Part shown: in pieces, positions 7,151-22,884 of the stretch
How positions within the stretch are numbered: the first letter of the stretch is position 1
Layout: each line of letters begins with the position of its first letter
IMG/VR virus record: IMGVR_UViG_3300017987_001680
Location: 1-26,617 of that record
Direction: 5' to 3' (one strand)
Origin: a virus
Length of the DNA stretch: 26,617 nt
Translations under genes and position numbers: made by a program
The notes under the pieces: model-generated
Database searches by the model: none
What the model saw: only the letters and a program-made list of their open reading frames with translations
What the model was told of the DNA's origin: nothing

Positions 7151-7160
7151 GGGGTGAATG

Positions 7161-8069
7161 ATGGATAAAATCAATCCGGCTCTCTATATCACCGATACTG
7201 ACCCGATCCCGCAGGAGATCTTCGACACGACCGACTGGTACGAGTCGCAAGAGACCACCATTCAAGACCCGGATCAGCTTCCGTGGATGATGGCGCAAGG
7301 GTGGATCATCGACGAGGCCGTGGTCACCGGGTACTGGACCTCCACCGGCAAGCCAATTGGTACATGGACGCTCAGCCGGCGAGTCCTGAAGCCCGAGGAG
7401 GCGCTGAAGGATCTCACCGAATCGTTCATCGAGGCCTACAACACCGGGCGTGAACTCAACGACACCCGGTACGATGAGATCGTCACCCTCTACTCGGTCA
7501 TGCTCGACAAGACCGAGGATGAGTTGAATAGCCTGGAGTCTGACGACACCACCTATGACGATCTGATTGACAACATCCTCGCGGCCATGGAGACCGACTT
7601 TGCCGAGTACGACGGCAACGTGGACGGCCTGTTCGACAGCTACGGGAATGCCCAGCGCACCCGCATCAATCAACAGTTCGACAATCAGGTGGCCGAGCAG
7701 CGGTCCAGCTTAATCGACAGGGGGATGTATAACTCGACCCTTTGGAACACCACCGAAGCCGGGATCGAGCGTGAACGTGCCCGCGCCCTAACTGACCTTG
7801 AGGACAGCATCCTCGAACGCAAGGTGGGCCTCGAGGATCGTCAGTACACCCTAAAGAGCGAGATGCGGGGCCGTATTCTGGCTGCGCGCGATCGGCTGCG
7901 GGCCTCGCTGCAGGATCGGGACACCAACCACATCACACTTCGGAACAACGTCCTCAATGCTCTGCTGGCATTCATGGAGCGGCGAGAGGATGGTTACCCG
8001 GACATTGGTTCGGTTGGCCAGTTGACCTCCAATTTGGGGGCGAGTTCACCTACATACCCGGCGCCGTAG
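7161..8069 (+). CDS. Helical virion-associated protein of unknown function, 302 aa
   Basis: The sequence reads ATGATG at 7158-7163; the second ATG (7161) is better spaced from AAGGGG at 7149-7154. The N-terminal ~80 residues form a mixed domain with Trp-rich text (GYWTSTGKPIGTWTLSRRV). From about residue 95 onward the protein is almost entirely helical and charged. It contains RINQQFDNQVAEQRSSLIDRG, MYNSTLWNTTEAGIERERARALTDLEDSI and LEDRQYTLKSEMRGRI. I associate this helical pattern with proteins of tail and internal-virion regions in phages with no assigned function. The position between fibre and ejection-type genes makes a tail or ejected role plausible. No membrane segment is seen. Confidence 0.6.
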   Translation: MDKINPALYITDTDPIPQEIFDTTDWYESQETTIQDPDQLPWMMAQGWIIDEAVVTGYWTSTGKPIGTWTLSRRVLKPEEALKDLTESFIEAYNTGRELNDTRYDEIVTLYSVMLDKTEDELNSLESDDTTYDDLIDNILAAMETDFAEYDGNVDGLFDSYGNAQRTRINQQFDNQVAEQRSSLIDRGMYNSTLWNTTEAGIERERARALTDLEDSILERKVGLEDRQYTLKSEMRGRILAARDRLRASLQDRDTNHITLRNNVLNALLAFMERREDGYPDIGSVGQLTSNLGASSPTYPAP

Positions 8070-8078
8070 GAGGGGACT

Positions 8079-9023
8079 ATGGGGATCAAGGTCACCCACG
8101 CGAGCGAAAAGAACCAGCCTGGCGTCCAGCGCAAGCCCAGGCCTGGGCGCCCGTTTGGTATGCAGCGCACCCCGTTTAACCCTATGACGGGGAAGTACAT
8201 GCCGCTGGGCCCGGAGGAGCAGCCGGCTGCTAGCGGAACCAGTGACATTGAGGTGCAGGCCTTCAAGATCTATGACGAGTCCACTGAGGATCTGATTTGC
8301 CGGGAATGGGACCATGAAACAGAGGTCGAAGGCACCGAAAACGTGTTTGTGGCCAAGCCCATCCTGTATCGCGGGTTCTTTGATGAGGTAGAAATTGACG
8401 GGTTGACCTACAAGCAGCAGGGCCTCGGCCGGAGAAAGGTTACGGACCAGCAAGGCAACGAGTGGTTCGAGGTTCTTACCCCTAAGTACAGTGACGGCGA
8501 TGTAATTTTCGCCAAGAGGCCAATTGAGGGTGGGACTGGGGTCGTTCGGTCTGAGCCTGACCAGTTGGAGTGGATTGAGGATTCCGGCCTGACTGGTGGG
8601 CGTATCTGGATTAGGGAGGACACCCATGTATTTAGGTCAATCCTTTCGGCTGAGTATCCAGATTATTTGAGTGTCTACACTGAGGATGAGAATGGCGAAA
8701 ATCGAGAGACATTCAATGTGGCCAAGCCGTACCTCCTCCGGCAAGAGCCGTTTCACGGGCAAACCCGGAAAGGGATCACATACACCTATGAAACGAGCGT
8801 CCCCGGCTATGGTTTGGCTATCGTCCGAACATGCTCAAAGCCGGGGTATAACTCGATTAAAGAGGTTATCACTCCGAGCTACCAGCAGGGCGATGAAATC
8901 TATGTGAAGGGGCCGATTCACCGGGGAACTGGTGTAGCTCCGTTTAGCGGGTCCGGGGAGTTGGAGCTTATCGAAGACGCTGGCCTTGGCGGCTGCAGAG
9001 TGTGGGCGCAGTTGAACATATGA
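8079..9023 (+). CDS. Virion-associated protein built of two tandem copies of a ~100-residue module, 314 aa
   Basis: The ATG at 8079 follows TAGGAGGGG. After a Pro/Gly/Arg-rich N-terminus of about 55 residues the protein contains the same module twice. Copy A starts near residue 89 (FVAKPILYRGFF ... LTYKQQG ... VLTPKYSDGDVIFAKRPIEG, GTGVV, LEWIEDSGLTGGRIW). Copy B starts near residue 212 (FNVAKPYLLRQEPF ... ITYTYET ... VITPSYQQGDEIYVKGPIHR, GTGVA, LELIEDAGLGGCRVWA). The ending ED-GL-GGR-WA resembles C-termini of small unnamed phage structural proteins. The duplicated module is probably beta-rich; decoration or tail-associated function is inferred. The stop overlaps the next ATG (ATGA at 9020). 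Confidence 0.65.
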   Translation: MGIKVTHASEKNQPGVQRKPRPGRPFGMQRTPFNPMTGKYMPLGPEEQPAASGTSDIEVQAFKIYDESTEDLICREWDHETEVEGTENVFVAKPILYRGFFDEVEIDGLTYKQQGLGRRKVTDQQGNEWFEVLTPKYSDGDVIFAKRPIEGGTGVVRSEPDQLEWIEDSGLTGGRIWIREDTHVFRSILSAEYPDYLSVYTEDENGENRETFNVAKPYLLRQEPFHGQTRKGITYTYETSVPGYGLAIVRTCSKPGYNSIKEVITPSYQQGDEIYVKGPIHRGTGVAPFSGSGELELIEDAGLGGCRVWAQLNI

Positions 9024-10273
9024 GCCAGATCATTCGCAATCAGCCGTGGGATTCGCACATGGCGACTCAATTCGATTCCATCTTTCACGATAAGTTCGAT
9101 GGGCTGGGCTTTAGCCTTGCGGCGACCCTTGTGTCTTCTGGCAGTGTCCTTGCCAGCGACGGGGTTCGTAAGATCAGTCGTGGGTCTGGAGCCCTCATCG
9201 ACCCGGATGCTTACTGGAACGTCCTTGATACTGATGAGCCCGCTTATCAGGGATCGGCTGGGCAGCAAGTTCTTTACCATCCCACCCAGAAGAAGCTCTA
9301 TGCAATCATCGCCTATCGGCTTTATGAGTGGAGCCACGAGCATGACATCTGGGAAGCCGTGAAGCCGAATGGGTCAGACACGGTTGAATTCGTCGGACAT
9401 ATGGTGGTGTTTGGTTATGATCTTGTGATTTTCAGCCGAAGCCTACAACCAGGCCATCGAGCGTGGGGAGGATGCCAAGAGCGCGGCAGTGATCGCAGCC
9501 GTTGGGGCGGGCCAATCTCAAACTGCCCTATAAGCAGTGAGGTGGTTGGCTACAACCCAGACCAAGGATTCTACACCGACTACGGATGGCCAGGCGACGA
9601 GCCCGATCAGGCTATCGTCTTCAGTGACGATCTCTATGTGTGGCGCGGCCAGAGCCTTTGGCGATATAACGGCACCGATTGGACGGACCTTCTCTTTATC
9701 GAGGAGCCCGTCGACGAGGACGACGATGGCGCAAGGCGAATTCAGAGTGGTGGCCCGATGGGGGTGTGGGGCAATAACCTTGTGATCGGGTACTACGCCT
9801 ACTGTGGCGGATCGCAGGCTAAAATCAGGACTCTAGGAGATGAGTCAGGGACCACGAAGAGCTGGGGGACAGTGATCGCCTACAATGGTAGCGATGTAGT
9901 GAGCCTCGCTGACGTGGGTACCATGTACGGATACATTCAGGACTTCGTTGACCATCATGGCACTCTCTATATGGTTGGCCCCACTGGCAGTTCGTTGGGA
10001 TTGCGCTTTGCCAAATATCTCGGGGGCAAGGCCTGGACGCCAATCGGTGATGTAAAGGGCTATCCGAGCTTTGGGGTGGTCATTGACGATCTGATTTATA
10101 TAGGCGGCATCTACATGGACGAGGCAGGGGGCATCGAGCTTGATCGGCCACTTGTTTCTTTTGACCCGTCTGCGAACGACTGGGAGCAGGTCGGAGATGC
10201 TCGAAATAACGGTGGCGGGGAGTTCACATCTCTGGTGAAGTATGACCCGTTCCAAGACCCCGATGAGGAGTAA
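9020..10273 (+). CDS. Kelch-like beta-propeller phage protein, possible receptor-binding protein, 417 aa
   Basis: I use the ATG at 9020, which overlaps the previous stop; the frame extends a few codons further upstream to a GTG without support. The protein has repeated blade-like strands with a Tyr/Trp rhythm typical of Kelch or BNR propellers: KKLYAIIAYRLYEWSHEHDIW, DDLYVWRGQSLWRYNGTDWTDL, NNLVIGYYAY, VIAYNGSDVVSLADVG, GTLYMVGP and LVSFDPSANDWEQVGDA. Position among tail genes suggests an adhesion or tail-decoration role. Residues about 141-160 are odd: their bases are a perfect 59-base copy of part of the giant gene, read here in a different frame, and the encoded Arg/Gly/Cys-rich text does not look like propeller sequence. 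Confidence 0.6.
   Translation: MSQIIRNQPWDSHMATQFDSIFHDKFDGLGFSLAATLVSSGSVLASDGVRKISRGSGALIDPDAYWNVLDTDEPAYQGSAGQQVLYHPTQKKLYAIIAYRLYEWSHEHDIWEAVKPNGSDTVEFVGHMVVFGYDLVIFSRSLQPGHRAWGGCQERGSDRSRWGGPISNCPISSEVVGYNPDQGFYTDYGWPGDEPDQAIVFSDDLYVWRGQSLWRYNGTDWTDLLFIEEPVDEDDDGARRIQSGGPMGVWGNNLVIGYYAYCGGSQAKIRTLGDESGTTKSWGTVIAYNGSDVVSLADVGTMYGYIQDFVDHHGTLYMVGPTGSSLGLRFAKYLGGKAWTPIGDVKGYPSFGVVIDDLIYIGGIYMDEAGGIELDRPLVSFDPSANDWEQVGDARNNGGGEFTSLVKYDPFQDPDEE
9441..9499 (+). repeat. 59-base perfect direct repeat, copy 1 (inside the propeller gene)
   Basis: Bases 9441-9499 are identical to 21625-21683. Similarity seems to continue imperfectly outward: GCCGAA precedes both, with a nine-base gap in this copy, and GCGGGCCAA versus GCGGCCAA follows. 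Here the bases are read one position out of phase with copy 2, so the encoded peptide is unrelated. Confidence 0.95.
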
Positions 10274-10276
10274 TTC

Positions 10277-11938
10277 ATGGCCATCCGAGTAAGTAACGAT
10301 CCCAATGCTTCAGTCCTTCTCGCCGCGCGGTTCGGCTCCGGGCGTGAACTCCAGCGCAAGCGGGCAGAGATCCCGGCGATTCAGGCGCAGGAGGCCCGTG
10401 CCGCCAGCAAGGAGCGCATGGCCTTTCAGGACGCACTCGATGCCCGGCGTAGCGCGTGGAGCTACTTCATGCAGGAGCAGCGCGGGGAGCGGGCCGACGC
10501 CGTCCGCACCCAGGCGCGAGAGTGGCAACTTGCCGACCAGAAGGCCCGGATGGCGCAGGCCGACAAGGACCGGAAGATGAAGGCCACCGACTCGGAGGCT
10601 GAATGGGCCCGGAAGATCCAGGCCGATAAGGATGAGCGTGCTTTCAAGGAGGCCCAGGACAAAGCTGCCCATCGACGCAAGATTGCCGAGAAGCAGTCTG
10701 CTTCCGATCTCCGCAAGAGCGAATGGGAGAGTAAGTTCACAAAAGAACAGGAAGCCCAGGACGAGAAAGACGCCAATGCGATCAACGACATCAAGAACCG
10801 GGACGACCTGACCGACCACGAGAAGCGGTGGGCTATCGAGCAGATCGAGGCCCGGCGTGCGAACCGGGAACCGATCCCGATGCGGACGAAACCGGAAATG
10901 ACCCCGCAGGAGATGCGCGACAAGTACAGCATCTACAACGAGGCCACCGGCCAGCGCACCTACTACGACCCCGAGAACCCCGGTAAGGTGGTTAAGGTCG
11001 AGCAGGAAGGCATGGGCGTAAAGGACCGAATGGAAGCGTGGAAACTGGCGAACGAGATGGCTTCCATGGGCGGGACAGTCAACCCCACCAAGGAGCAGAT
11101 CCAAGAGAAGTTCGACCTCATTACTGGCAGCGGCAATCGAGAACCGCAGTGGTGGGATCAGGACCAGGCACTCCCTAACAGCCTCGCGATGGGCGCCCCG
11201 GAGCCCCCGTCCGGTGGTGGCCCGGCGCCGTTGGCCCCGACAGCCCCCGCGGCCCCGGCTGGCCCGGCTGCAGTGGCGCCGGAGGACATGACCCCGCGGG
11301 AGAGAGCCATGTCCCTTGACCCATTGGAGCGCGCCAAGGAGATGATTCTGGACCCGGATCGCCCGATGTATGCCGAAGAAGAAGTTCCGACTGCTGAGGA
11401 GTTCGGGCAGGCTATCGCAAACCTCACTCCCGAAGAGCGCAAGGAATTCGATCTGCGCGGGCGCATGGAAAAGAGCCCGCATGTCCCTCAGAATGTGAAA
11501 AAGTACCTCGACAAGATGAGTTCTCTCACTGACCAGGAATGGCAGACAGGAGCCGGTGCGAAGGTGATCGCCGACGCCATGGAGTTGGATGCGATGGGCA
11601 CCAGATTGAGCGATATACCCGGCAATGAGGAGGAAGCCCGGTACAGGATCAAGGACATAGAGCCTTCCGAGATCAAGGATCAGGCCACCCTCGACCGCCA
11701 GATCGAGATCGCGGAGCGCCGGGCCAATAAGCTCAAGAAGGAAATCAGTGGATCTGACATGGGCCTGCTACCTGTCATGAGGCGCAGTTCCAGCCGTGAC
11801 AGCTTCAACAACACCAACGAGCGAATCAAGGTCTTGAAGGCGCGAAAGAAGGAACTTCGGGATGAAGAACGGACTTTGAAGGATAGTATGGCTAAGGCTA
11901 AGCTGAGAATCGCCAAGCAGATGAAGAAAGGCCAGTAA
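10277..11938 (+). CDS. Coiled-coil internal virion / ejection-type protein, 553 aa
   Basis: The ATG at 10277 follows a GAGGAG site and a three-base gap. Residues about 25-190 are an almost uninterrupted charged helix rich in Ala, Gln, Lys, Arg, Asp and Glu (long coiled coil). Next comes a short domain with the phrase EATGQRTYYDPENPGKVVKV, an Ala/Pro-rich flexible linker near residues 310-335, and further helices ending in a Lys-rich tail (KLRIAKQMKKGQ). There is no membrane segment or enzyme motif. It lies two bases upstream of the giant polyvalent gene. Long helical proteins in this position in short-tailed phages are often internal or ejected proteins; that role is inferred here. Confidence 0.55.
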   Translation: MAIRVSNDPNASVLLAARFGSGRELQRKRAEIPAIQAQEARAASKERMAFQDALDARRSAWSYFMQEQRGERADAVRTQAREWQLADQKARMAQADKDRKMKATDSEAEWARKIQADKDERAFKEAQDKAAHRRKIAEKQSASDLRKSEWESKFTKEQEAQDEKDANAINDIKNRDDLTDHEKRWAIEQIEARRANREPIPMRTKPEMTPQEMRDKYSIYNEATGQRTYYDPENPGKVVKVEQEGMGVKDRMEAWKLANEMASMGGTVNPTKEQIQEKFDLITGSGNREPQWWDQDQALPNSLAMGAPEPPSGGGPAPLAPTAPAAPAGPAAVAPEDMTPRERAMSLDPLERAKEMILDPDRPMYAEEEVPTAEEFGQAIANLTPEERKEFDLRGRMEKSPHVPQNVKKYLDKMSSLTDQEWQTGAGAKVIADAMELDAMGTRLSDIPGNEEEARYRIKDIEPSEIKDQATLDRQIEIAERRANKLKKEISGSDMGLLPVMRRSSSRDSFNNTNERIKVLKARKKELRDEERTLKDSMAKAKLRIAKQMKKGQ

Positions 11939-11940
11939 GC

Positions 11941-14900
11941 ATGTCCGAATCCCTGTTTGACCCCAATGGCCCGAGCCCCCAGACCGTAGACAGCTTCCTT
12001 ATCGACGGATTTACCGATCCGGACGAGATCCTGGAGGTCGCAGAAGACCTGACCACGGAACAGAAGAAGCGGTGGGCAAAGGGGTTCAAGGACAAGCTAC
12101 CAGGGGCCAAGAAGCGCCTGCAGGGCAAGGTGGACCAGTACGAGAGGGAGAGGGCAAAGGAGAATGAGGAGCTTCTCGATCTGGGCGTCGAGATCCTTGA
12201 TGTGGCCGAGCAGGCGCCCGGTATCCGCGATGTGAAATTCGGTGTATCTGCAGGGGCACGCGATATTGCATCCCTAGTTGCGAGGCCATTCGCTCCTAAA
12301 TTGTCCGATGAGATCAACCGGGAAGTGGGGTTCGAGGCCCAGGCCCACGAGTTTGCCAGCGAGGACCAGGCGCTTTCGCTGGTGACTGGTGGCCTTCGTG
12401 ACGCTACCCGGTCAATGACTCTGGCTATCCCCGCCTCTATGGCGGGCGCCCCAGCCATGATCGGGATCTTCGGTGCGTCCGAAATGAACCAGGCATGGAC
12501 GGAATCGACCGATGCCGGGCTGCGGGGCAAAGAGCGGTGGAAGTATGTTGGCCGGGCTGGCGCTATCGAAGTCTTGGTTACCGCGGCCATGCAGAAGATC
12601 GGTGCTGGTGGTATGGAGAAGATGCTGAGTGCCAATGGCCGGCTGATGAAGCCCGGCGCTGTGGAATGGGTCAAACGACTCGGCATCAACATACCCCCGG
12701 AGTCGATTGAGGAAAATGCGATTGAGATCATGCACCTCTACAACTCGCAGATCAGTGGCATGGGCCCGGATGTGACCATGGACATGATCGCCGAGACCCT
12801 GAAGCGCACCACAGTCAGTACGATTTTCTCCACTGGCGGTATCGGCACCATGCAGGGGGTCATGTCCCAGAAGGGCCTGAAGCAGCGCGAACCCCTCGTC
12901 CAGGGCATGATGCAGATCCATGGTTTCACCCGCGAACAGGCTGTAGGGGTGCTGGACCGCGCGGCCAAGGGTGAGAACTTCGATGAGGGCTATGCCAAGG
13001 AAATCCAGGCTGAGCGCATGAAGACCCCCGCGGGCGCGGTGGAGTGGGCCGCGACCAACCGGGACAAGGCCCGTGAACTCGCTAGCAAAGAGAAGCCCAG
13101 CCGCAAGGACTTCGAGAACGCCGACCTCCCAACGATGGATGCCAAGCAGCGGCAGGACTTCGCGAACAATGTCGAGCGGACGATGAACGAAATCGACCAG
13201 AGCAAGGCCGAGCTCGAGGACACCTACCAGCTTTCCGACTACGAGCCCAGCAATGAGATGATGATGCTCCGGGCTGAACACAACCAGATCCGGTTCGATA
13301 TTCTTGACGCACAGGAGTTCATGGCGAACCTCCCCGAGGACAGCGACCAGCGTGAGGTGGTCCAGGCCCAGATCGACGCCATGGTGGAGCAGTTTGCGGC
13401 CATCGACAGCGCCATGGAGGCTCTGCTTGTGGAGGAGGGCGCCATCGAGGCTCCGGCCGAGCAGGCTGTTGAGCAGCCGCCAGTGCAGGAGCCGGCCCCA
13501 ACCGTCGAGCCCGAGTCGGTGGCCCCGGACCCTACCCAGCCCACTGAGGTAGCGCCTGAACCGGAGCCAGTAACCCCCGAGGAAGAGATCCCGGCAGAAG
13601 CGGATACCCTCGTGCCCCAGATCGAGTCCATGATCGGGCACCACATCCAGCAGGGGTTGGACGAGGGGATTACCCGCGTTGACATCGCAGACGACGGGGA
13701 GACTTCAGAAACGGCCCTTAATCTGGACGACTTCGAGATCGACCTCGATCGATTGGCGATGAAGGCCGAGCGGGGCACCCTGACCAAGGCCGACATCGTG
13801 AACTCGAACCTCGGGCAAGTCCTGGCAATCAATGAGTTGGATGATGCCCTGGCCGCGATTCAGCAAGACCCCACCCTCCTCGATCGCGTGGGTGGCTACC
13901 TGAACGATCTGGACGACGCCGCCCAAGCCGAGGCAGCGATTGAGGCCGAGGATGCGGCCCCAGAGTTGGTTGTCCGAAAGCCCGGCGACCCCCATCAGCA
14001 TGACGACCTGTTCAGGCAGCAGTATGAGGAAATGGATCTGTCCGTCCTTGAGATGAGGCAGCACATTCGCGAGAACCAGCAGTTCATCGAAGATGTGAAG
14101 AAAATTCGCGTTGAGGACTTGGGGCAGGAGATCACCCAAAAAGACCAGTATGAGATGGAAATCTCTGAACGGCGCATTGAGATCTTGGAGGAGATGATCG
14201 AGAAGGCTGAACAGGCCGACGAGGTGCCAGCCGACGACTCCGACATCAATTCCATGATGCTGGATGCCAAGCTCCGGCAGGCCGAAAAGGAATTGGAGGG
14301 GATGAAATTCCCCACCAACGCCAAGAAGCAGAAGCAGGCAGAGGTGGAAGACCTCAAGAGGCAGATCGCCGAGGCAAAGGGGCAGGAGGTCAAGCCAGAA
14401 CCCGAACCGGAGCCCCAGGCAGAAGAGGAACTCGACCTCGCCGAGATTCCAGAAACCATCGAGGAAATGAGTGAGGCTCAGATCGAAGCCTTGCTGGTGG
14501 ACGCCATCAACGCCGAGACCGACACCTTTCGGGATGAGACCGGCGAACTCGACCCGGAGATTGAGGTCGAGGCCCGCGAGGCCACTGAACAGGGCATAGA
14601 GGCCTTGAAGCGCGCCCAAAAGGAACAGAGCTTCAGGCAGGAGAAGCGAGAGAAGGTCCAGCAGGCCAAAGAAGAACTCAATCAGGAGATCAGCAACCTT
14701 GCCCGGATGTTCCGCGAGAAGGGCATGATGGCAAACGCCATGCTCGACCCGGAATTGGTCAAGGGTACCGGCATTGTCTTGGCGAAGGCCATCAAGCTGG
14801 GGTTCTACAAATTCGATGAGGCTTTCTCGCTGTTTCGGGATCAGTTCAAGGGTAAGAGCCAGATAGAGGCCCTGTATCCGTATGTAGCGAGGGCATGGAA

Positions 14901-17900
14901 CAACCTCCGAAAGACCCACAAGGCTTTCGAGGTGCTTGATGAGGCTCCCGAGGATGTGCGGGCCCCGTCCGCAACCGAGCAGGCCGAGCGCACAACCCCG
15001 GACGCCCGTCTGGCCGAGAACATCGCGACCTTGCTGGTCAATACCGAGGGTGAGATCACCGAGGACCGGATGTTCGAGTTGGCCGACGAGGCGTTCGAGG
15101 GCACTCGGGCAGAGGGCAAGTACGGGCCTTCAGACGCCTACGACGCCATGGAGCTTGGCGTCAACATGGCGATCAAGCAGCAATTCGACCTCGAACTCGA
15201 CCCGGCCATCGAAACGATGGAGCCCGAGAACGTGATGAAGGTGATCGAGCGGATCGACAAATTGCTGGCCAGAATCCCCAAGCAGAAGAACCGGAGTGGC
15301 GAGAAGGATGCCATGCAGCAGTTCTCGACGCCTCCGGCCTACGCCCTGGCGGTCAATTGGATTGCCGGTATCTACAGCAATGATACCGTCTTGGAGCCCT
15401 CTGCCGGTACTGGCGACCTGGCCGTATGGGCCAAGGTGTTCGGGGCCACCGTGATCGGGAACGAACTCTCGGCGCGGCGTGCCGATCTGCTTCGCCAGCT
15501 TGGGCTGGATCTGGTGACCACCGAGAACGCCGAGCAGATGCACAACATCATGCCGGGCCGGTTGGAGAAGGAAGGGATGCCCGCGCCCACCGTGGTCGTG
15601 ATGAACCCGCCCTTCTCGCGGGCTGCACACCGGATGGGCAATAAGCGGATCATTGGCACCGACCTGAAGCATATCTCGTCTGCGCTCAAGGCCCTGGCGC
15701 CGGGTGGCCGGCTGGTGGCAATCACCGGCTCCCCCCTCCAATTGGACAAGCGGGGCGAGAATAAGAGCTTCTTGGCATGGCTGGAAGAGATCTCAGACGA
15801 TTACAACGTCCGGGCAAATGTCCATGTCGGGCGCGAGGTTTACGGCCAATACGGCACGAATTTCCCCACCAGGGTGCTTGTTATCGACAAAACCGGGCCC
15901 ACCACGGCCCCGGTGGAGTCGCAACAGGTGGCCGACATCAAAGAGTTGGTGTATGCTTTAAGTGAGGTACGCAATGAACGAGAAGCTCCAGAAGGCACTG
16001 GCGTCGATCAGCGAGATACAGGGGTGGAACCCTCCGACACCGGAGGAAGACCCGAAGCTGGAACTGGCGAGGTACGCCCTACTGATGATGGCTCTGCCGC
16101 CGACAGTGAAGCCGCTACAGGAACGACTGGAGTACCTGATTCAGGACAATCAGGAAAAGGCGATCAGGATGCTCGAAGAGGCAAGCGAGGCGACACTGGT
16201 CGCCGAGGGGAATCCCGAGCAGACCGCGATGAATTGTCTGGAAGCACTGAACAGCAGCCTGCTACTGGAACAACCGGACCTCGCTCTGAATCTGGCCTGA
16301 AGCGCGGCGAAGCCCAGAAGGCCAAGCAAGAAGAACTCAGTGATCGCGGCTACGAGGAGTACACCGTCCAGAAGGCGGTTTTCGATAACTCCAAGCCGCA
16401 CATGGCCTCGCTGGACGAGTCCGCGGCAATGGCTGCGGTTGAGTTGCCCGACCTGACCTACACCCCCAACCTCCCCACGGATGTGATCGAGTCCGGGGAA
16501 TTGTCGGATGTGCAGCTTGAGCGCGTGGCCTATGCCGGTGAATCGCACAGCAAGACCCTCCCGCCCGACAAGGATGGGGTGGAGCGCCGTCGAGGCTTCA
16601 TGATCGGCGACGGTACCGGGACAGGGAAGACCAGATCCATCTTGGGCATCTTTCGCGACAACTACCGCCAAGGCCGAAAGAAAGCCATTCTGGTCTCGAA
16701 GAACGCGGACCTCCTGGCCGGAGCCCGGTCAAACATGGGCCCGGTGTGGGAGGGTGAAGGAAAAGACCCCAAGAAGTTCATTTTCGAGTTGGGCAAGACC
16801 CCTGCATCCATGAAGGACGAGGCCGGGAATAAGTTGCCGGGCATCCCCCAGGTGAAGCAGTCCGAAGGTATTATCTACACCACCTACGGCACCCTCGGGC
16901 ACTCAGCCGGCCAGACCCGCCTACAGCAGCTTGTGGATTGGGTTGGCGAGGACTTCGACGGCGTTCTGGTGTTCGATGAGGCGCACACCATGGGCAACGC
17001 CCTTGAAGGCGACGGCAAGCTGGGCGGCAAGGGGCCGTCCAAAGCCGCGCTCATGGGGATCGAGTTGCAGAAGATGCTACCCAATGCCCGCGTGGTCTAC
17101 GCCACCGCCACGGCCGCGACTGAGGTGCGGAACATGGTGTACGCGGATCGGCTGGGCCTGTGGGGGCCCGGCACCCCGTTCATCGACGCCAAGACCTTTG
17201 TATCCCAGGTATCGGCTGCAGGGCTGGCCGCTATGGAACAGGTGGCCCAGGACCTCAAGGCCCGCGGCCTCTACATGGCCGCGCAGATCACCCTGAACGA
17301 CGGCACCCCGGAAGGGACCGTCGAGTACGAGCGGGTGCAGCACGATTTGAGCGAAGAACAGACCATGATGTACGATCGCATGGTCGAGGCTTGGAACGTG
17401 GTCCTGCAGAACATCGAGGAGGCCTTGGGCATCACCGGGGCGAACTCGCGCGCGAAGTCCTACATCCTCTCACAGTTCTGGAGTTCTAACCAGCGGTTCT
17501 ACCAGCAGATCATGTCGGTAATGAGTATGCCGAGCGTTCTGGCCAAGATCCGTGAGGACATCGACAACAACAGGTCAGTGGTGATCCAGCTTACCGATAC
17601 CGGGGATGCGGCCATGGAACGCGCCCTGGCGAACCAGAAGGAAGGAGAGGAGATCGACCTCTCCCCGTTCAACATGCTGGTGCAGTACGTCAAAAACACC
17701 TTCCCGGTGCAGGAGTTCGAGCCATACATTGACGATAACGGCAATAAGCAGACTCGCCCGGTAGTGGATGCAGACGACAAGCCGGTGCTGAACCGGGAGG
17801 CCGTGGCGAAGCGGGACGCCCTGATCGCGGACCTTGAGAGCATGGCGAGTGAGTTCGGCATGTTCAACCCCATCGACATGATCTACAACGAGTTCAGCGA

Positions 17901-20900
17901 CAAGATGGTGGGCGAGGTGACCGGGCGCAAGAACCGGGTCTATCGCGACCCCCGGACCGGCGAACGCAAGGTGATCCCGATCAAGGGCAAGTATAAGAAT
18001 GCCAGTATGCAGGACTTCCAGAATGGGCAGAAGCGCATCCTGATCTTCTCTCGGGCCGGAGGCACAGGGTTCTCATACCACTCCGATTTGCGGGTGCCCA
18101 ACCAGCAGCAGCGGTCCCACTACATCCTGCAGCCGGGGTGGTCGGCCAGCGAAGCCCTGCAGGGCCTTGGCCGCACCCACCGGACCAACCAGGCCTCGGC
18201 CCCCCAAGTGCGCCTTGTGTCCACCGATCTGCCGAGCCAAAAGCGATTCTTGTCCACCATTGCCAAGCGCCTCGACCAGCTTGGGGCCCTGACCAAGGGA
18301 CAGCGGGACGCGGGCAGCGGTGGTGTGTTCAGCGCAGCCGACAGCCTCTCCAGCCAGCAGGCCAGTGATGCGTTGCGCCTGTTCTACGAGGGGCTGTTCG
18401 ATGGGAGCCTTGGGATCGAGGTTATGGACTTCGAGGCCGCAACCGGCCTGAAGCTCACGGACGAGGACGGGCGCCCCCTGCAGAGCGCACCCCCGGCCAT
18501 GGAGCAGTTCTTGAACCGGATGCTCAATATGCCGGTGACCATGCAGAACGATGTGTTCAGCGCGTTCGAGGGAATCCTCAAGGAGCGCGTTCGGATCGCG
18601 GAAGAGGCCGGAACCATCGACGCGGGCATGGAGACCATCAAGGCCGAGAGCGTAGAGGTGCTTGACGAAGAGGTGGCATGGTCGGATGAGGCCTCCGGGG
18701 CCTCGGTGATCGCCCGGAAGCTGGACATTAGCCGGAAGGTGCGCCCCACGCGCTTTGACGAGATCTCCAACAAGGCCAGCGGGCGCAGCCCGTCCGAGTA
18801 CATCAGGAACATCAAGAACGGCAATCTCTATGCCGTAGTGTTCATGAGCCCAGAGTTTGATGCCAAGAGCGGGAAGATGATCGAGCGTGCCCGGCTGGTC
18901 AGTCCGCACTCAGTGAGGACCGAGCCGGCCAAGGATGTGCGCCGCCGTATGGCCAGCGAAGGCTGGGAGCGCCTGAACCGCGAGGAGGCCCGCGGCGAGT
19001 GGGAGAAGAAGGCAGATGCCCTCGAAGGCTCCCTGGCCCACGATGAGGCCTACATCTTCAGCGGGGCCCTGCTGTCGGTCTGGGACCGCATGAAACAGAC
19101 AGGGAACCGGCTCTATCGCGTCCTCACCAACGACGGACAGGTATTGCTGGGGCGATTGGCCTTTGCCGAAGATGCCGATGTGATCCTCCACCAGTTCGGC
19201 ATGAAGGGCGGGGTATCGGCAGATCGGGCATGGGACACCATCATGGCCCATGGCCGCGTAGCCCTGAACAACGGCTGGGTGATCTCTATAAACGAGGTCA
19301 ACGACGAGGACCGCATCGAGATCAAGGGGCCCACGTTCGCCTATGCCAGCAAGCTCGAAGGCATGGGGGCATTTGTGGAGCGGATCAACTTCAAGCAGCG
19401 TTACTTCATCCCGGTGGGCGAGAAAGCCCGCGGGATCTTTGACGCGCTGGCCCAGGAGTACGGGATCAAGCAGGTGTTCACAGCCAAGCCGCCATCGAAC
19501 GACGGCTCCGAGGACGCCCCTGGCTCCCCCGATGCGCTCAACGCCCCGGATGTGGGGTTCCCCGACTCCGACACCCCGGCAATGACGGCAGAAGCACAGG
19601 AAGCCGCGACCCGTGAGCGCCTGAAGCGCGATCCTGTCCAGAAGCGGGACATTATCGACTTCATCAGAAAGCACTGGATGATCCCGATCCGCAGCAAGGG
19701 TACGTTCAGAAAGAGGGCGGCGGGCTGGTTCAGCCCCGGGGCCACGGAGATCCGGCTGCGCGACGACCGTGATATTGTGACCGCGTTCCACGAACTCGGG
19801 CACCACATCGACTGGACGACCAACAAGCGGTGGAGCAAGCACCAGAAGAACCAGTCCATCGCGAAGGAACTGGTGCAGTTGGGCAAGGATCTCTATGGCG
19901 ACCGGAAGCCCCCAGGCGGGTACAAGTCCGAGGGTATGGCCGAGTTCATCGCGGCGTGGATCGCGGAGGAGTCGGACCTGAAGGAGCGGGCGCCCAATCT
20001 CTATGCCTACTTTGTAAATGAGTACCTCCCGGCCCATCCCAAGACCGCCGAGGGGCTGAACAAGCTGCAGGGCTTGCTGAAGGACTGGATCGCCATGGGC
20101 GACATCGCCCAGGTGAAGGCCTTTATTACCCCGTATCGCAAGGCGTGGTCTACCAATGACATTCTCTCCCGAGCATGGGAGTGGGTGGACGAGAAGCTGA
20201 TCGACATCAACTCGGCAGTCGTCCGGGCTATGGAGGCCGGTGGCGTGGATCGCAGTATGCTCAAGGCCAAGGACGATCCGTTCATGCTCTTGACCAAGTG
20301 CAGCATGGCTGCGGGCGGGAAGCTCTTGCACGCGGCCACTTCGGCAACCACGGATCTGGCCGATCAGGTGACCGGCGAATCTCTGCGGGATGCCCTGTCC
20401 CCGGTGACCCAGCAGGGCAACGAGGCCTACGAGAACTTCAAGCTCTACATCGTGGCGCTCCGGGCCAGAGACCTGATGGAGCGTGGCATCCAGTCCGGGT
20501 TGACTGCTAAGAACATCGAGACCACCATCGAGGCCTTTGACAGCCCCGCGTTCATGGATGCTGCCGAGCGGGTGTCGGCCTGGAGCCAGAGAATCCTTCG
20601 GCTGCTTGTAGAGTCTGGCAAGATCGACAGCGCGACCTACCGGCGCATCGTCGAGGCCAACCCGATCTACGTACCCTTTATGCGCCAATTCGAGGATGGT
20701 GAGATCCGGGCCGATCTGGGCAAAAGCAAGACCGGTAAGGGGCTCTACCAGATCCGCGGCAGTGGCCGCGAGATCCACGATCCCATCGAGGCCTTACTGA
20801 TGCAGGCCGAGAAGGTGATCAGCATGGCCATGAGTACCGATGTGCTGCGGGCGCTCGTGAAGGTCTACGGCGACAATATCGTGACTCGGGATCAGGTGAA

Positions 20901-22884
20901 CCAGGGCTTTGAGGGCGCGAACGACCCCGGCATCGCCAATATGATGGTGGAAGTGCCCGCCCCCAGGCAGTCAACCACCTTCGGGGCCGAGCAGATCAAG
21001 AAGGACGTTGCCGGTATCCTCGCCAAGAAGGGCGCCGACATGGACGAGCTTTTCTCGGCGTTCCTCGACAATTGGGACGAGAGCTTGACGGTCTTTACCG
21101 ATGCCCCAGAGTACCGTGGGCGCCACAATATCGTAGCTATCGACATCGACGGCACCCGGCGCTGGTTCGAGGTCTCCCCGAAGCTCTACAAGGTGATCCG
21201 GAACCTCAACCGGCGCGATGTGCTGCCGGGCGGGTTGGGGTGGCTGTCGCGCAAGGCCGTGGGCCTGCAGCGCCTCGGTGCCACCGGCCTGAACCCCGGC
21301 TTCGGCCTGATTCGGAACTTCCAGCGAGATGCGGTGACCTCGATGGTCACTGCCGACTTCTCGAAGGGTGGCCCCCTGGCTCCGTTCCGTGGGCTCATCA
21401 ACCACATCCGGGACACCGAGATGAACCAGCGATACCACGCGGCAGGCGTCCAGCTTGCTGGATGGATCGGGCAAGACACCAGACGGGCCGGGAAGCTTAT
21501 TAAGAAGGTGAAGGCGGTCACCAAGGGGCAGCGGCGCATGGTGACAGTCATGGAGCCAATTGAGGCGCTCAGAGAGCTTTTCAGCATTACTGAGGTAGGC
21601 CCGCGTCTTGCCGAATACGCCGACGCCTACAACCAGGCCATCGAGCGTGGGGAGGATGCCAAGAGCGCGGCAGTGATCGCAGCGGTCGCGGCCAAGGACA
21701 TCACCGTGAACTTCACCAGGGCGGGCGAGTATGGCCGTTACCTGAACGAAATCTTTCTGTTCTTCAATGCGGCAGTCCAGTCCATCGACAAGATGGGGCG
21801 GTCCTTCAAGGAGGCCCCGAAGCGCACTGTTGCCCGCGGATTGGTCTACATCACCTTCATCTCGATGCTCAACTACTGGCGCAACAGGGACGAGGAGTGG
21901 TGGAAGGAATACCCAGCCTACGAGAAATGGCGCTACACCCACTGGCGCATCCCCGACACCGATACCGTGCTGCGCGCGCCCCTGCCGTTCGAGTTTGGGG
22001 CCCTGTTCGGGGCCCTGCCGGTAGCCATGATCGAGGAGGCCCGGACCCCGGGTTCACTGATCGAGGCCGTGAAGCTGGCACTCGAAGGCGCGATCCCGAA
22101 CGACTGGCCGGCGGTTATCGGGCCGATCATCGACGTTCTGACGAACGAGGATTGGGCCGAGCGCCCCATCGTGCCCCAGAACATCAAGGAGAACCGGAAG
22201 CCCGAGGACCAGTACACCCAGCACACGACCGAGTTCGCGAAGATGCTGGGCGCGATGATTAACGAGTCACCGGCCCAGATCGAGCATTTGGTGAATGCCT
22301 ACAGTGGTGGGCTTTACCGGCGTCTGGCCCGGACCCTCGAAAACATCGGCGATCCGAGCTTTTTCCTCGAAGAACCGGCCAATATCCCGGTTGTTGGCAC
22401 CCTGTTCGCCCGGAAGGACACCTCTCGAGTCGCAGGGGACTTCTACAAGCGCAAGAAGGAGCTGCAGCAGTCGATAGGCTCCGGTGATGCCACCCTGGCA
22501 GAACGTGGCGAATACAGCGCAATGCAGAGCCTCAGTAGCGATCTGAGCGAGAAGTGGGCCGAGATCCGTGGCCTGCAGGGAGAGAACACCCCTGAAAACC
22601 GTGCCAAGGGCAAGGAGATCCGGCGCCAGATCAGCGCAGACATCAAGAAATTGCGGGAAATGACCGAGCAGGAGCGGGAAGACCTGGCCCTGCAGAAGGC
22701 GGCTTACGCGATCTCGGGGCCGACCCCGAGCGAAAAGCAGGCCGATCTGAAGGCGCTGCTGAAGGGGCAGGAACCCAAGAAATTGTACGCTTTGCTGGCG
22801 AAAGAGTACAAAAAGCCCTTCGGCAACAAGCACTACGCGGCCAGAATCCGCAGGCTAAACAAGGTCATGGGAATTGGTCGTTGA
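11941..22884 (+). CDS. Giant polyvalent protein: ejection-type N-terminus, N6-adenine methyltransferase, DarB/strawberry-notch helicase, zinc peptidase and LPD38-like regions, 3647 aa
   Basis: One uninterrupted frame covers about 41% of the window. Visible order: helical, partly membrane-seeking N-terminus (about residues 150-310); coiled coils and Pro/Glu-rich linkers (near 500-557 and 817-843); a methyltransferase with LEPSAGTGDL at 1151 and NPPF at 1222; a disordered Gly/Thr/Ser/Asp linker (1345-1453); a superfamily-2-type helicase with GDGTGTGKT (1556-1564), DEAH (1679-1682) and QGLGRTHRTNQ (2074-2084); HELGHH (2617-2622); and a long helical C-terminus. This architecture matches the polyvalent proteins described in phages and conjugative elements, of which P1 DarB is the best-known relative and is an injected antirestriction factor. 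Injection and protection of entering DNA are inferred here. The ATG at 11941 lies two bases after the previous stop. Gene symbol left blank because orthology to darB is not shown. Confidence 0.85.
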   Translation: MSESLFDPNGPSPQTVDSFLIDGFTDPDEILEVAEDLTTEQKKRWAKGFKDKLPGAKKRLQGKVDQYERERAKENEELLDLGVEILDVAEQAPGIRDVKFGVSAGARDIASLVARPFAPKLSDEINREVGFEAQAHEFASEDQALSLVTGGLRDATRSMTLAIPASMAGAPAMIGIFGASEMNQAWTESTDAGLRGKERWKYVGRAGAIEVLVTAAMQKIGAGGMEKMLSANGRLMKPGAVEWVKRLGINIPPESIEENAIEIMHLYNSQISGMGPDVTMDMIAETLKRTTVSTIFSTGGIGTMQGVMSQKGLKQREPLVQGMMQIHGFTREQAVGVLDRAAKGENFDEGYAKEIQAERMKTPAGAVEWAATNRDKARELASKEKPSRKDFENADLPTMDAKQRQDFANNVERTMNEIDQSKAELEDTYQLSDYEPSNEMMMLRAEHNQIRFDILDAQEFMANLPEDSDQREVVQAQIDAMVEQFAAIDSAMEALLVEEGAIEAPAEQAVEQPPVQEPAPTVEPESVAPDPTQPTEVAPEPEPVTPEEEIPAEADTLVPQIESMIGHHIQQGLDEGITRVDIADDGETSETALNLDDFEIDLDRLAMKAERGTLTKADIVNSNLGQVLAINELDDALAAIQQDPTLLDRVGGYLNDLDDAAQAEAAIEAEDAAPELVVRKPGDPHQHDDLFRQQYEEMDLSVLEMRQHIRENQQFIEDVKKIRVEDLGQEITQKDQYEMEISERRIEILEEMIEKAEQADEVPADDSDINSMMLDAKLRQAEKELEGMKFPTNAKKQKQAEVEDLKRQIAEAKGQEVKPEPEPEPQAEEELDLAEIPETIEEMSEAQIEALLVDAINAETDTFRDETGELDPEIEVEAREATEQGIEALKRAQKEQSFRQEKREKVQQAKEELNQEISNLARMFREKGMMANAMLDPELVKGTGIVLAKAIKLGFYKFDEAFSLFRDQFKGKSQIEALYPYVARAWNNLRKTHKAFEVLDEAPEDVRAPSATEQAERTTPDARLAENIATLLVNTEGEITEDRMFELADEAFEGTRAEGKYGPSDAYDAMELGVNMAIKQQFDLELDPAIETMEPENVMKVIERIDKLLARIPKQKNRSGEKDAMQQFSTPPAYALAVNWIAGIYSNDTVLEPSAGTGDLAVWAKVFGATVIGNELSARRADLLRQLGLDLVTTENAEQMHNIMPGRLEKEGMPAPTVVVMNPPFSRAAHRMGNKRIIGTDLKHISSALKALAPGGRLVAITGSPLQLDKRGENKSFLAWLEEISDDYNVRANVHVGREVYGQYGTNFPTRVLVIDKTGPTTAPVESQQVADIKELVYALSEVRNEREAPEGTGVDQRDTGVEPSDTGGRPEAGTGEVRPTDDGSAADSEAATGTTGVPDSGQSGKGDQDARRGKRGDTGRRGESRADRDELSGSTEQQPATGTTGPRSESGLKRGEAQKAKQEELSDRGYEEYTVQKAVFDNSKPHMASLDESAAMAAVELPDLTYTPNLPTDVIESGELSDVQLERVAYAGESHSKTLPPDKDGVERRRGFMIGDGTGTGKTRSILGIFRDNYRQGRKKAILVSKNADLLAGARSNMGPVWEGEGKDPKKFIFELGKTPASMKDEAGNKLPGIPQVKQSEGIIYTTYGTLGHSAGQTRLQQLVDWVGEDFDGVLVFDEAHTMGNALEGDGKLGGKGPSKAALMGIELQKMLPNARVVYATATAATEVRNMVYADRLGLWGPGTPFIDAKTFVSQVSAAGLAAMEQVAQDLKARGLYMAAQITLNDGTPEGTVEYERVQHDLSEEQTMMYDRMVEAWNVVLQNIEEALGITGANSRAKSYILSQFWSSNQRFYQQIMSVMSMPSVLAKIREDIDNNRSVVIQLTDTGDAAMERALANQKEGEEIDLSPFNMLVQYVKNTFPVQEFEPYIDDNGNKQTRPVVDADDKPVLNREAVAKRDALIADLESMASEFGMFNPIDMIYNEFSDKMVGEVTGRKNRVYRDPRTGERKVIPIKGKYKNASMQDFQNGQKRILIFSRAGGTGFSYHSDLRVPNQQQRSHYILQPGWSASEALQGLGRTHRTNQASAPQVRLVSTDLPSQKRFLSTIAKRLDQLGALTKGQRDAGSGGVFSAADSLSSQQASDALRLFYEGLFDGSLGIEVMDFEAATGLKLTDEDGRPLQSAPPAMEQFLNRMLNMPVTMQNDVFSAFEGILKERVRIAEEAGTIDAGMETIKAESVEVLDEEVAWSDEASGASVIARKLDISRKVRPTRFDEISNKASGRSPSEYIRNIKNGNLYAVVFMSPEFDAKSGKMIERARLVSPHSVRTEPAKDVRRRMASEGWERLNREEARGEWEKKADALEGSLAHDEAYIFSGALLSVWDRMKQTGNRLYRVLTNDGQVLLGRLAFAEDADVILHQFGMKGGVSADRAWDTIMAHGRVALNNGWVISINEVNDEDRIEIKGPTFAYASKLEGMGAFVERINFKQRYFIPVGEKARGIFDALAQEYGIKQVFTAKPPSNDGSEDAPGSPDALNAPDVGFPDSDTPAMTAEAQEAATRERLKRDPVQKRDIIDFIRKHWMIPIRSKGTFRKRAAGWFSPGATEIRLRDDRDIVTAFHELGHHIDWTTNKRWSKHQKNQSIAKELVQLGKDLYGDRKPPGGYKSEGMAEFIAAWIAEESDLKERAPNLYAYFVNEYLPAHPKTAEGLNKLQGLLKDWIAMGDIAQVKAFITPYRKAWSTNDILSRAWEWVDEKLIDINSAVVRAMEAGGVDRSMLKAKDDPFMLLTKCSMAAGGKLLHAATSATTDLADQVTGESLRDALSPVTQQGNEAYENFKLYIVALRARDLMERGIQSGLTAKNIETTIEAFDSPAFMDAAERVSAWSQRILRLLVESGKIDSATYRRIVEANPIYVPFMRQFEDGEIRADLGKSKTGKGLYQIRGSGREIHDPIEALLMQAEKVISMAMSTDVLRALVKVYGDNIVTRDQVNQGFEGANDPGIANMMVEVPAPRQSTTFGAEQIKKDVAGILAKKGADMDELFSAFLDNWDESLTVFTDAPEYRGRHNIVAIDIDGTRRWFEVSPKLYKVIRNLNRRDVLPGGLGWLSRKAVGLQRLGATGLNPGFGLIRNFQRDAVTSMVTADFSKGGPLAPFRGLINHIRDTEMNQRYHAAGVQLAGWIGQDTRRAGKLIKKVKAVTKGQRRMVTVMEPIEALRELFSITEVGPRLAEYADAYNQAIERGEDAKSAAVIAAVAAKDITVNFTRAGEYGRYLNEIFLFFNAAVQSIDKMGRSFKEAPKRTVARGLVYITFISMLNYWRNRDEEWWKEYPAYEKWRYTHWRIPDTDTVLRAPLPFEFGALFGALPVAMIEEARTPGSLIEAVKLALEGAIPNDWPAVIGPIIDVLTNEDWAERPIVPQNIKENRKPEDQYTQHTTEFAKMLGAMINESPAQIEHLVNAYSGGLYRRLARTLENIGDPSFFLEEPANIPVVGTLFARKDTSRVAGDFYKRKKELQQSIGSGDATLAERGEYSAMQSLSSDLSEKWAEIRGLQGENTPENRAKGKEIRRQISADIKKLREMTEQEREDLALQKAAYAISGPTPSEKQADLKALLKGQEPKKLYALLAKEYKKPFGNKHYAARIRRLNKVMGIGR
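12391..12990 (+). other. Domain: Ala/Gly-rich helical, membrane-seeking N-terminal region of the giant protein
   Basis: Residues about 150-310 contain hydrophobic, small-residue helices (LAIPASMAGAPAMIGIFGAS, AGAIEVLVTAAMQKIGAGGM, TTVSTIFSTGGIGTMQGV) interspersed with ESIEENAIEIMHLY. Similar N-terminal regions occur in polyvalent and internal virion proteins thought to help cross the host envelope. The assignment is by composition and context only. Confidence 0.45.
15280..15900 (+). other. Domain: N6-adenine DNA methyltransferase-like region of the giant protein
   Basis: QFSTPPAYALAVNWIAG leads into motif I, LEPSAGTGDL (residue 1151 on), the S-adenosylmethionine-binding loop. An acidic-turn strand ATVIGNEL follows, then the catalytic motif NPPF at 1222-1225. 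All key residues for an N6-adenine enzyme are present, so it looks active. A DNA target-recognition domain is not obvious. Confidence 0.85.
15974..16300 (+). CDS. Candidate overprinted gene inside the giant gene, 108-aa acidic helical protein
   Basis: This frame lies wholly inside the giant gene, one base off its frame. Its ATG at 15974 has GAGG at 15964-15967, six bases upstream, and it runs to TGA at 16300. By hand count the third codon position is G or C in 80 of 108 codons (74%), while the giant frame over the same bases has 38 of 108 (35%). A 40-codon sample of the giant frame just upstream (from 15301) has about 75%. So codon preference switches to the embedded frame. The product looks like a folded helical protein (KLQKALASISEIQGW, LELARYALLMMALPP, LQERLEYLIQDNQEKAIRML), with 18 acidic and 8 basic residues. 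The giant frame here encodes a low-complexity linker between methyltransferase and helicase. I recognise no family; small acidic anti-defence protein is speculation. Confidence 0.6.
   Translation: MNEKLQKALASISEIQGWNPPTPEEDPKLELARYALLMMALPPTVKPLQERLEYLIQDNQEKAIRMLEEASEATLVAEGNPEQTAMNCLEALNSSLLLEQPDLALNLA
16460..19490 (+). other. Domain: DarB/strawberry-notch-type helicase region of the giant protein
   Basis: A lead-in, YTPNLPTDVIESGELSDVQL, precedes Walker A GDGTGTGKT (1556-1564). Then come DEAH (1679-1682), motif III-like YATATAATE (from 1720), and a C-terminal half with GGTGFSYHSDLR and motif VI QGLGRTHRTNQ (2074-2084). The following block with YIFSGALLSVWDRM and RLYRVLTNDGQVLLGR is characteristic of the strawberry-notch C-terminal region seen with DarB-like helicases. 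All motifs appear intact. Confidence 0.85.
19610..20100 (+). other. Domain: zinc metallopeptidase-like region of the giant protein
   Basis: TAFHELGHHIDWTT places an HExxH zinc motif at residues 2617-2621. EGMAEFIAAWIAEE follows about 43 residues later and offers Glu2664 or Glu2668 as third ligand, the gluzincin arrangement. The preceding strand GATEIRLRDDRDIVTAFHE fits the edge strand before the active-site helix. It could process packaged proteins or cleave a host protein on entry; substrate unknown. Confidence 0.7.
20260..22420 (+). other. Domain: C-terminal helical region with LPD38-like signature of the giant protein
   Basis: Residues about 2775-2930 carry a helical block (LYIVALRARDLMERGIQSGL, ... 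ANPIYVPFMRQFEDGE) and about 3110-3490 carry GLNPGFGLIRNFQRDAVTSM, the Asn-Phe-x-Arg-Asp pattern, and TVNFTRAGEYGRYLNEIFLF. This is how I recall the large polyvalent-protein-associated domains at the C-terminus of phage polyvalent proteins (LPD38 group). No enzymatic function is known to me. It contains copy 2 of the 59-base repeat (residues 3229-3248). Confidence 0.6.
21625..21683 (+). repeat. 59-base perfect direct repeat, copy 2 (inside the giant gene)
   Basis: These bases are identical to 9441-9499. Here they are read in the giant gene's frame as AYNQAIERGEDAKSAAVIAA (residues 3229-3248; the last codon is completed just outside the repeat). This helix fits its surroundings, so this copy is most likely the donor. 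Confidence 0.95.

Follow-up and report, generated by a model that had tools for sequence, protein, structure and literature searches.

Comparative sequence analysis indicates that a real second gene almost certainly lies nested at positions 15974-16300, in the +1 frame of a giant gene that joins a DNA-adenine methylase to a Strawberry-notch (Sbno)-type helicase. The window, i.e., the whole stretch of DNA analysed, is a 26.6-kb virus record (IMG/VR IMGVR_UViG_3300017987_001680, positions 1-26,617). Direct support comes from gene-like conservation, start and stop signals, selection, the predicted fold and linkage to the host gene. Taken as a whole, we consider it fairly probable that the linker between the two enzyme domains contains a complete second gene in the +1 frame, with a product that partners the methylase-translocase.

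Results

The giant host gene and its linker

The host of the nested gene is a polyvalent-type gene of 3647 aa (11941-22884; + strand, as for all window features below) that combines a methylase, a Strawberry-notch-type helicase and LPD38. Its adenine-methylase core (15319-15891; QFSTPP ... NPPF ... VIDK), placed by alignment and of the family described in PMC5512222, lies directly 5' of the nested gene, and the Strawberry-notch-type NTPase domain (PF13872, E 2e-91; 16396-17379) and Strawberry-notch C-terminal helicase domain (PF13871, E 4e-71; 17866-18633) follow 3' of the linker. Fusion of an NPPF adenine methylase to a Strawberry-notch ATPase is the arrangement of the polyvalent methylase-helicase dyads, and a putative antirestriction role is assigned to the giant gene by this type. 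The linker from methylase to helicase measures 402 nt, and the giant reading of the nested region within it (15973-16299) is Gly/Thr/Asp/Arg-rich and has low third-position GC (GC3).

The window phage is of a poorly known lineage. In the methylase-helicase tree it forms a deep branch, with at most 54% identity to any other row. The six genes 5' of the giant gene (2715-11938; 528, 949, 303, 314, 423 and 553 aa) gave no PHROG match and no firm Pfam match, and positions 315-1136 match the SU10 adaptor family.

A complete +1 frame with an inverted third-position bias

The original prediction described a 108-codon frame, offset by +1 and equipped with its own ATG and Shine-Dalgarno site, and this frame was recovered exactly: in phase +1 to the giant ORF, it starts at ATG 15974, ends with TGA at 16298-16300 and encodes a product of 108 aa (P0001). 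A GAGG Shine-Dalgarno-like site (15964-15967; giant codons Glu-Val) stands 6 nt 5' of the ATG, and a TAA in the nested frame (15959-15961) leaves 4 codons between itself and the start. The predicted GC3 values of 74% for the nested and 35% for the giant frame were reproduced on recount (0.74 and about 0.35). In a sliding profile of the 10.9-kb gene, giant-frame GC3 is 0.68-0.88 elsewhere and falls only at the nested linker; synonymous resampling of the same giant residues gave an expected giant GC3 of 0.80 ± 0.04, against about 0.36 observed (z = -11.9). Openness of the +1 frame is by itself unremarkable, as synonymous resampling of the window linker leaves it open in 68% of cases, and it is therefore the comparative evidence that decides.

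The nested family in phages and plasmids

Used as a direct query, P0001 found no match in phages, plasmids, viral contigs, genome contigs, PHROGs, Pfam or NCBIfam; the nested family was reached only by way of the host gene, through a methylase-helicase query. This query led to plasmids 41% alike, three of which (Methylomonas, Methylotuvimicrobium) contain a 114-codon +1 ORF in the matching linker, with products clearly related to one another. A profile of these three and a fourth plasmid retrieved 12 more members in bacterial genomes, and each of these 16 initial homologues, from plasmids and genomes, sits within a methylase-Sbno gene in +1 phase. A scan of viral contigs with the plasmid nested alignment gave no match; an alignment of methylase, linker and helicase led to 80 viral contigs, where "viral" is the IMG/VR label and some contigs (e.g., L092) nearly match a plasmid. 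Many contigs are near-copies, such that 79 nested proteins reduce to 67 non-redundant ones.

Among the 95 loci with both domains, drawn from phages and plasmids, 86 carry a GC3-switched +1 ORF of at least 95 codons in the methylase-Sbno linker; elsewhere in the giant frame, 22 such ORFs were counted in 818 kb total. Stop codons, which the original prediction had named as a potential refutation, thus do not invade the nested frame, which these 86 relatives keep. The genomes that have the nested gene span 33% to 70% GC, and the giant frame is open from methylase through helicase in 94 of 96 loci. On the methylase-helicase tree, presence and absence imply 5 changes versus a shuffled mean of 11.5, a count in which L077 was scored as being without the nested gene even though a fitting +1 frame is present in its linker.

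The nested gene is absent from the alphaproteobacterial plasmids examined, L005, L006, L071, L086, L092, L093, L101 and L103-L106; as these methylase-Sbno genes are without it, it is dispensable for the enzyme in some lineages. Linkers in lineages without the nested gene are mostly short, a pattern compatible with an insertion, with loss, or with a fusion that enclosed an old small gene.

A single copy of the family is present in each of the 12 bacterial genomes and 36 virus records that were searched whole, and in samples of 201, 398 and 369 genomes each neighbourhood-checked family match again lay in a methylase-helicase linker. The original prediction had also proposed a search for stand-alone copies; none outside the linker was found in the genomes, virus records and genome samples searched (the last being samples only). 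Two relatives of the window were traced via its 949-aa protein (4301-7150), and since the methylase-helicase module was detected in neither, they are unusable as a test of the nested gene. One of them, the related phage contig L009 (2274-8483), encodes a 2069-aa giant protein that shares the first ~400 residues only of the window's giant protein, a case of modular exchange. Neither the module nor the nested family was detected in the related phage G001.

Several further loci are recorded as observations in their own right. The polyvalent protein encoded from 4818 on in L090 (1925 aa) has the methylase and is without the Sbno helicase; after its methylase the nested frame is reduced to 52 codons, as if lost along with the helicase. 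In the cultured Bacteroides phage BS-TP4 (L121:3153-3512), with a host gene 27% alike, a 119-codon +1 ORF occupies the matching place; its GC3 is 0.66 versus 0.33 for the giant frame, it is without a Shine-Dalgarno site and its product does not match the family profile. A 137-codon GC3-switched ORF elsewhere in the giant gene of L047 (9108-9521) has an ordinary-looking product and is possibly a second nested gene. L102 contains a 233-codon +1 ORF (6198-6899) that opens with a Cys-rich, zinc-finger-like segment and may be a homing-endonuclease-like insertion into the helicase region. Related GC3-switched embedded ORFs in L013 (9465-9800) and L018 (9711-10157), near the 3' part of the available stretch, may be by-products of the conserved giant frame.

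Start signals

Across the family, the nested start is anchored on the giant motif LEG[IV]RN[DE]: the ATG overlaps the giant Asn/Asp/His codon that follows [IV]R, and the Shine-Dalgarno site coincides with the giant codons Leu-Glu-Gly that precede [IV]RN[DE]. The window has ALSEVRNERE at this place in its giant frame and shares the family start. ATG is found at 66 of 68 nested starts, and the preceding in-frame stop lies a median of 8 codons 5' of the start (within 10 codons in 40 of 68). Because start choice used the Shine-Dalgarno site, counts of that site lean upward; at the site, 43 of 50 Glu codons are GAG, where the codon usage of the individual genes predicts 25.8, a test that shares part of the same bias.

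Selection on the two frames

According to the original prediction, constraint on the nested gene dictates the linker sequence, and the relatives bear this out: the nested frame is open, conserved and under purifying selection, whereas the giant reading of the same bases drifts. Mean amino-acid identity over the shared bases in the plasmid clade is 0.61 for the nested and 0.38 for the giant frame. For 14 pairs, dN/dS by the Nei-Gojobori method, which is biased in overlapping frames, was 0.11-0.73 in the nested frame, 1.16-2.74 in the giant frame over the same bases and 0.06-0.24 in the methylase flank. The giant values above 1 do not signify positive selection, because giant third positions are nested second positions, from which selection on the nested frame purges changes. 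Substitutions at nested codon positions 1, 2 and 3 numbered 386, 333 and 617, respectively (position 3 versus position 2, P = 2e-20). Such a conserved second frame under purifying selection is the pattern of an embedded overlapping gene, and the unusual make-up and rapid divergence of the giant linker are best read as side effects of it.

Family membership and predicted structure of P0001

Against a profile of the 67 nested proteins with the window left out, P0001 scored 16.8 bits, and 2 of 5000 shuffles did as well; its best single match is a Thioflavicoccus plasmid protein (L010; phmmer E 1.3e-4). Against the narrow plasmid family alone it was not significant, and it was not among the family-profile matches at E < 0.01 in all six-frame ORFs. 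The similarity of P0001 to the family is real but weak, and position, phase, start context and modelled fold agree with it. In L010 itself (Thioflavicoccus mobilis plasmid pTHIMO01, 3839-10448), a frame change apparently interrupts the methylase-Sbno gene, the downstream parts of which seem rearranged, with the nested frame intact.

The folded, acidic, helical product foreseen in the original prediction is also what AlphaFold2 and composition suggest. P0001 is predicted to form a mainly helical bundle (pLDDT 82.7, pTM 0.77) and has a net charge of -10 and a pI of 4.3, and a plasmid-type member from Methylobacter is likewise predicted to be mainly helical (pLDDT 90.2, pTM 0.83). A fold search of the PDB gave no match at E <= 0.001 for the nested proteins, predicted viral structures gave no significant fold match for P0001, and there was no convincing family match for the nested proteins in Pfam, PHROGs, NCBIfam or PADLOC; a stray Pfam match was seen in 1 of 50 nested members (E 0.003). 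Weak sequence matches to telomeric repeat-binding factor 2 (E 0.04) were rejected as chance. The nested proteins are a new family.

Discussion

We propose that a second gene, complete in itself, lies in the +1 frame of the linker that joins the DNA-adenine methylase to the Strawberry-notch (SWI2/SNF2-type) translocase. On it, ribosomes would start at ATG 15974 from a Shine-Dalgarno site inside giant codons, yielding a helical protein of ~12 kDa. The giant frame over these bases would also be read; stop-free and itself little constrained, it would supply no more than a flexible spacer. Made from the same mRNA beside the nascent enzyme, the nested product would serve as an assembly, recognition or regulatory subunit and would help modify or protect incoming phage or plasmid DNA. 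Since the family was found only inside methylase-Sbno genes, with one per genome, the most likely function is that of a dedicated partner of the methylase-translocase, a reading to which we give slightly better than even chances; the linkage is indirect evidence of partnership, because nesting by itself would fix it. The broader statement, on which we are evenly divided, is that the methylase-translocase of phages and plasmids has an overlooked subunit overprinted on its linker, the linker being a by-product and the pair co-inherited across several bacterial groups.

Among the alternatives, the one that survives best assigns the product another role in the spread of the element, e.g., as a stabiliser, host-takeover protein or virion component, that involves no contact with the giant enzyme. 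The lack of a match to known families leaves room for such a role; however, phages and conjugative plasmids share the nested gene, which goes with a single enzyme, and phage G001, in which it was not found, is also one in which the methylase-helicase module was undetected, and we regard this reading as unlikely. An independent anti-defence factor, such as an acidic DNA mimic that blocks restriction enzymes and merely shares the giant-gene mRNA, would suit both a host gene of the antirestriction-type methylase-helicase dyads (PMC5512222) and the acidity of P0001 (charge -10, pI 4.3), with pI below 6 in 84% of the family. Yet charge ranges from -19 to +6 across members, 12% of which are neutral or basic, and the PDB fold search returned neither a DNA mimic nor any other significant match; neither the family-wide strong negative charge nor the mimic fold of the Ocr and ArdA type was thus found. 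A free-standing factor should, moreover, sometimes occur outside the giant gene, and none did so in the genomes and records searched. With charge varying across the family and the gene not found elsewhere, a free DNA mimic is the less likely reading, and we deem it a slim prospect.

Programmed frameshifting from the giant frame, which would yield a shortened methylase ending in the nested sequence as a C-terminal domain, is a distinctly improbable explanation. Shine-Dalgarno-like sites are able to stimulate frameshifting, one is present at the nested start, and the nested frame comes directly after the methylase; against this, frameshifting requires no ATG, although one stands close behind the Shine-Dalgarno site in 66 of 68 members, and the in-frame stop within 10 codons 5' in 40 of 68 leaves little room for it. 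An accidentally open +1 frame in a GC-rich disordered linker, for all that 68% of resamples are open at this GC, is refuted by the comparative data, namely the GC3 z of -11.9, conservation across 33% to 70% GC, purifying selection and confident folds. Likewise refuted are two compensating indels, whether errors or real, that shift a normal giant-protein domain temporarily out of frame: they would explain why the GC3 switch is sharp at both ends, but the arrangement recurs in unrelated assemblies and in isolates with conserved nested ATG, Shine-Dalgarno site and stop, and in 94 of 96 loci the giant frame has no interruption between methylase and helicase.

Deeply conserved embedded out-of-frame genes are few in prokaryotes and their elements, and annotation pipelines drop such genes; the nested family was found in phages as well as conjugative plasmids, some of them from cultured methanotrophs. 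Carriers in culture include Methylotuvimicrobium alcaliphilum 20Z, with the nested gene at 105156-105497 (- strand) of plasmid MEALZ_p, and M. buryatense 5G. Its recurrence as the same hidden gene at the same spot in most related genes suggests an overlooked partner of an anti-restriction machine, and studies of methylase-helicase proteins may have missed a component. In many members, the nested start is removable by a substitution, such as Asn AAT to AAC, that leaves the giant protein unaltered, making a clear test possible.

Modification or protection of invading DNA is the presumed task of the methylase-helicase dyad (PMC5512222). The polyvalent dyad described there (DarB-like; Methylomonas WP_020485828.1 with a Strawberry-notch ATPase) has the same architecture as our giant host gene, which adds LPD38; no gene inside the linker is described in PMC5512222, and the word "overlap" is absent from its text. 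We found no description of the nested gene in the literature (open-licence papers only), and it is in none of the annotated plasmid and phage records examined, among which the plasmid gene tables are incomplete. Embedded genes are already known as a kind; the nested family itself is new.

Within srfAB of Bacillus subtilis, a gene for a very large multidomain enzyme, comS encodes a small out-of-frame protein, which resembles the present arrangement of a small out-of-frame gene in a giant enzyme gene. ComS, a short regulator of competence, belongs to a single bacterial group, whereas phages and plasmids of several groups carry the nested family. The lambda gene Rz1 lies wholly inside Rz, on the same strand, out of frame and with its own start, and the Rz and Rz1 products act together (PMC5295617). 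Our nested gene is also same-strand, fully embedded and provided with its own start; unlike in Rz/Rz1, the host is a giant DNA enzyme with a passive linker frame, and the helical product belongs to a new family. Cas11, a small subunit whose translation begins inside a larger cas gene (PMC11899642, PMC10212523), keeps the frame of that gene, unlike the +1 nested product with its putative role; as a small subunit made from inside the gene of a large protein, it offers a works-like analogy for how the nested product might partner the methylase-translocase.
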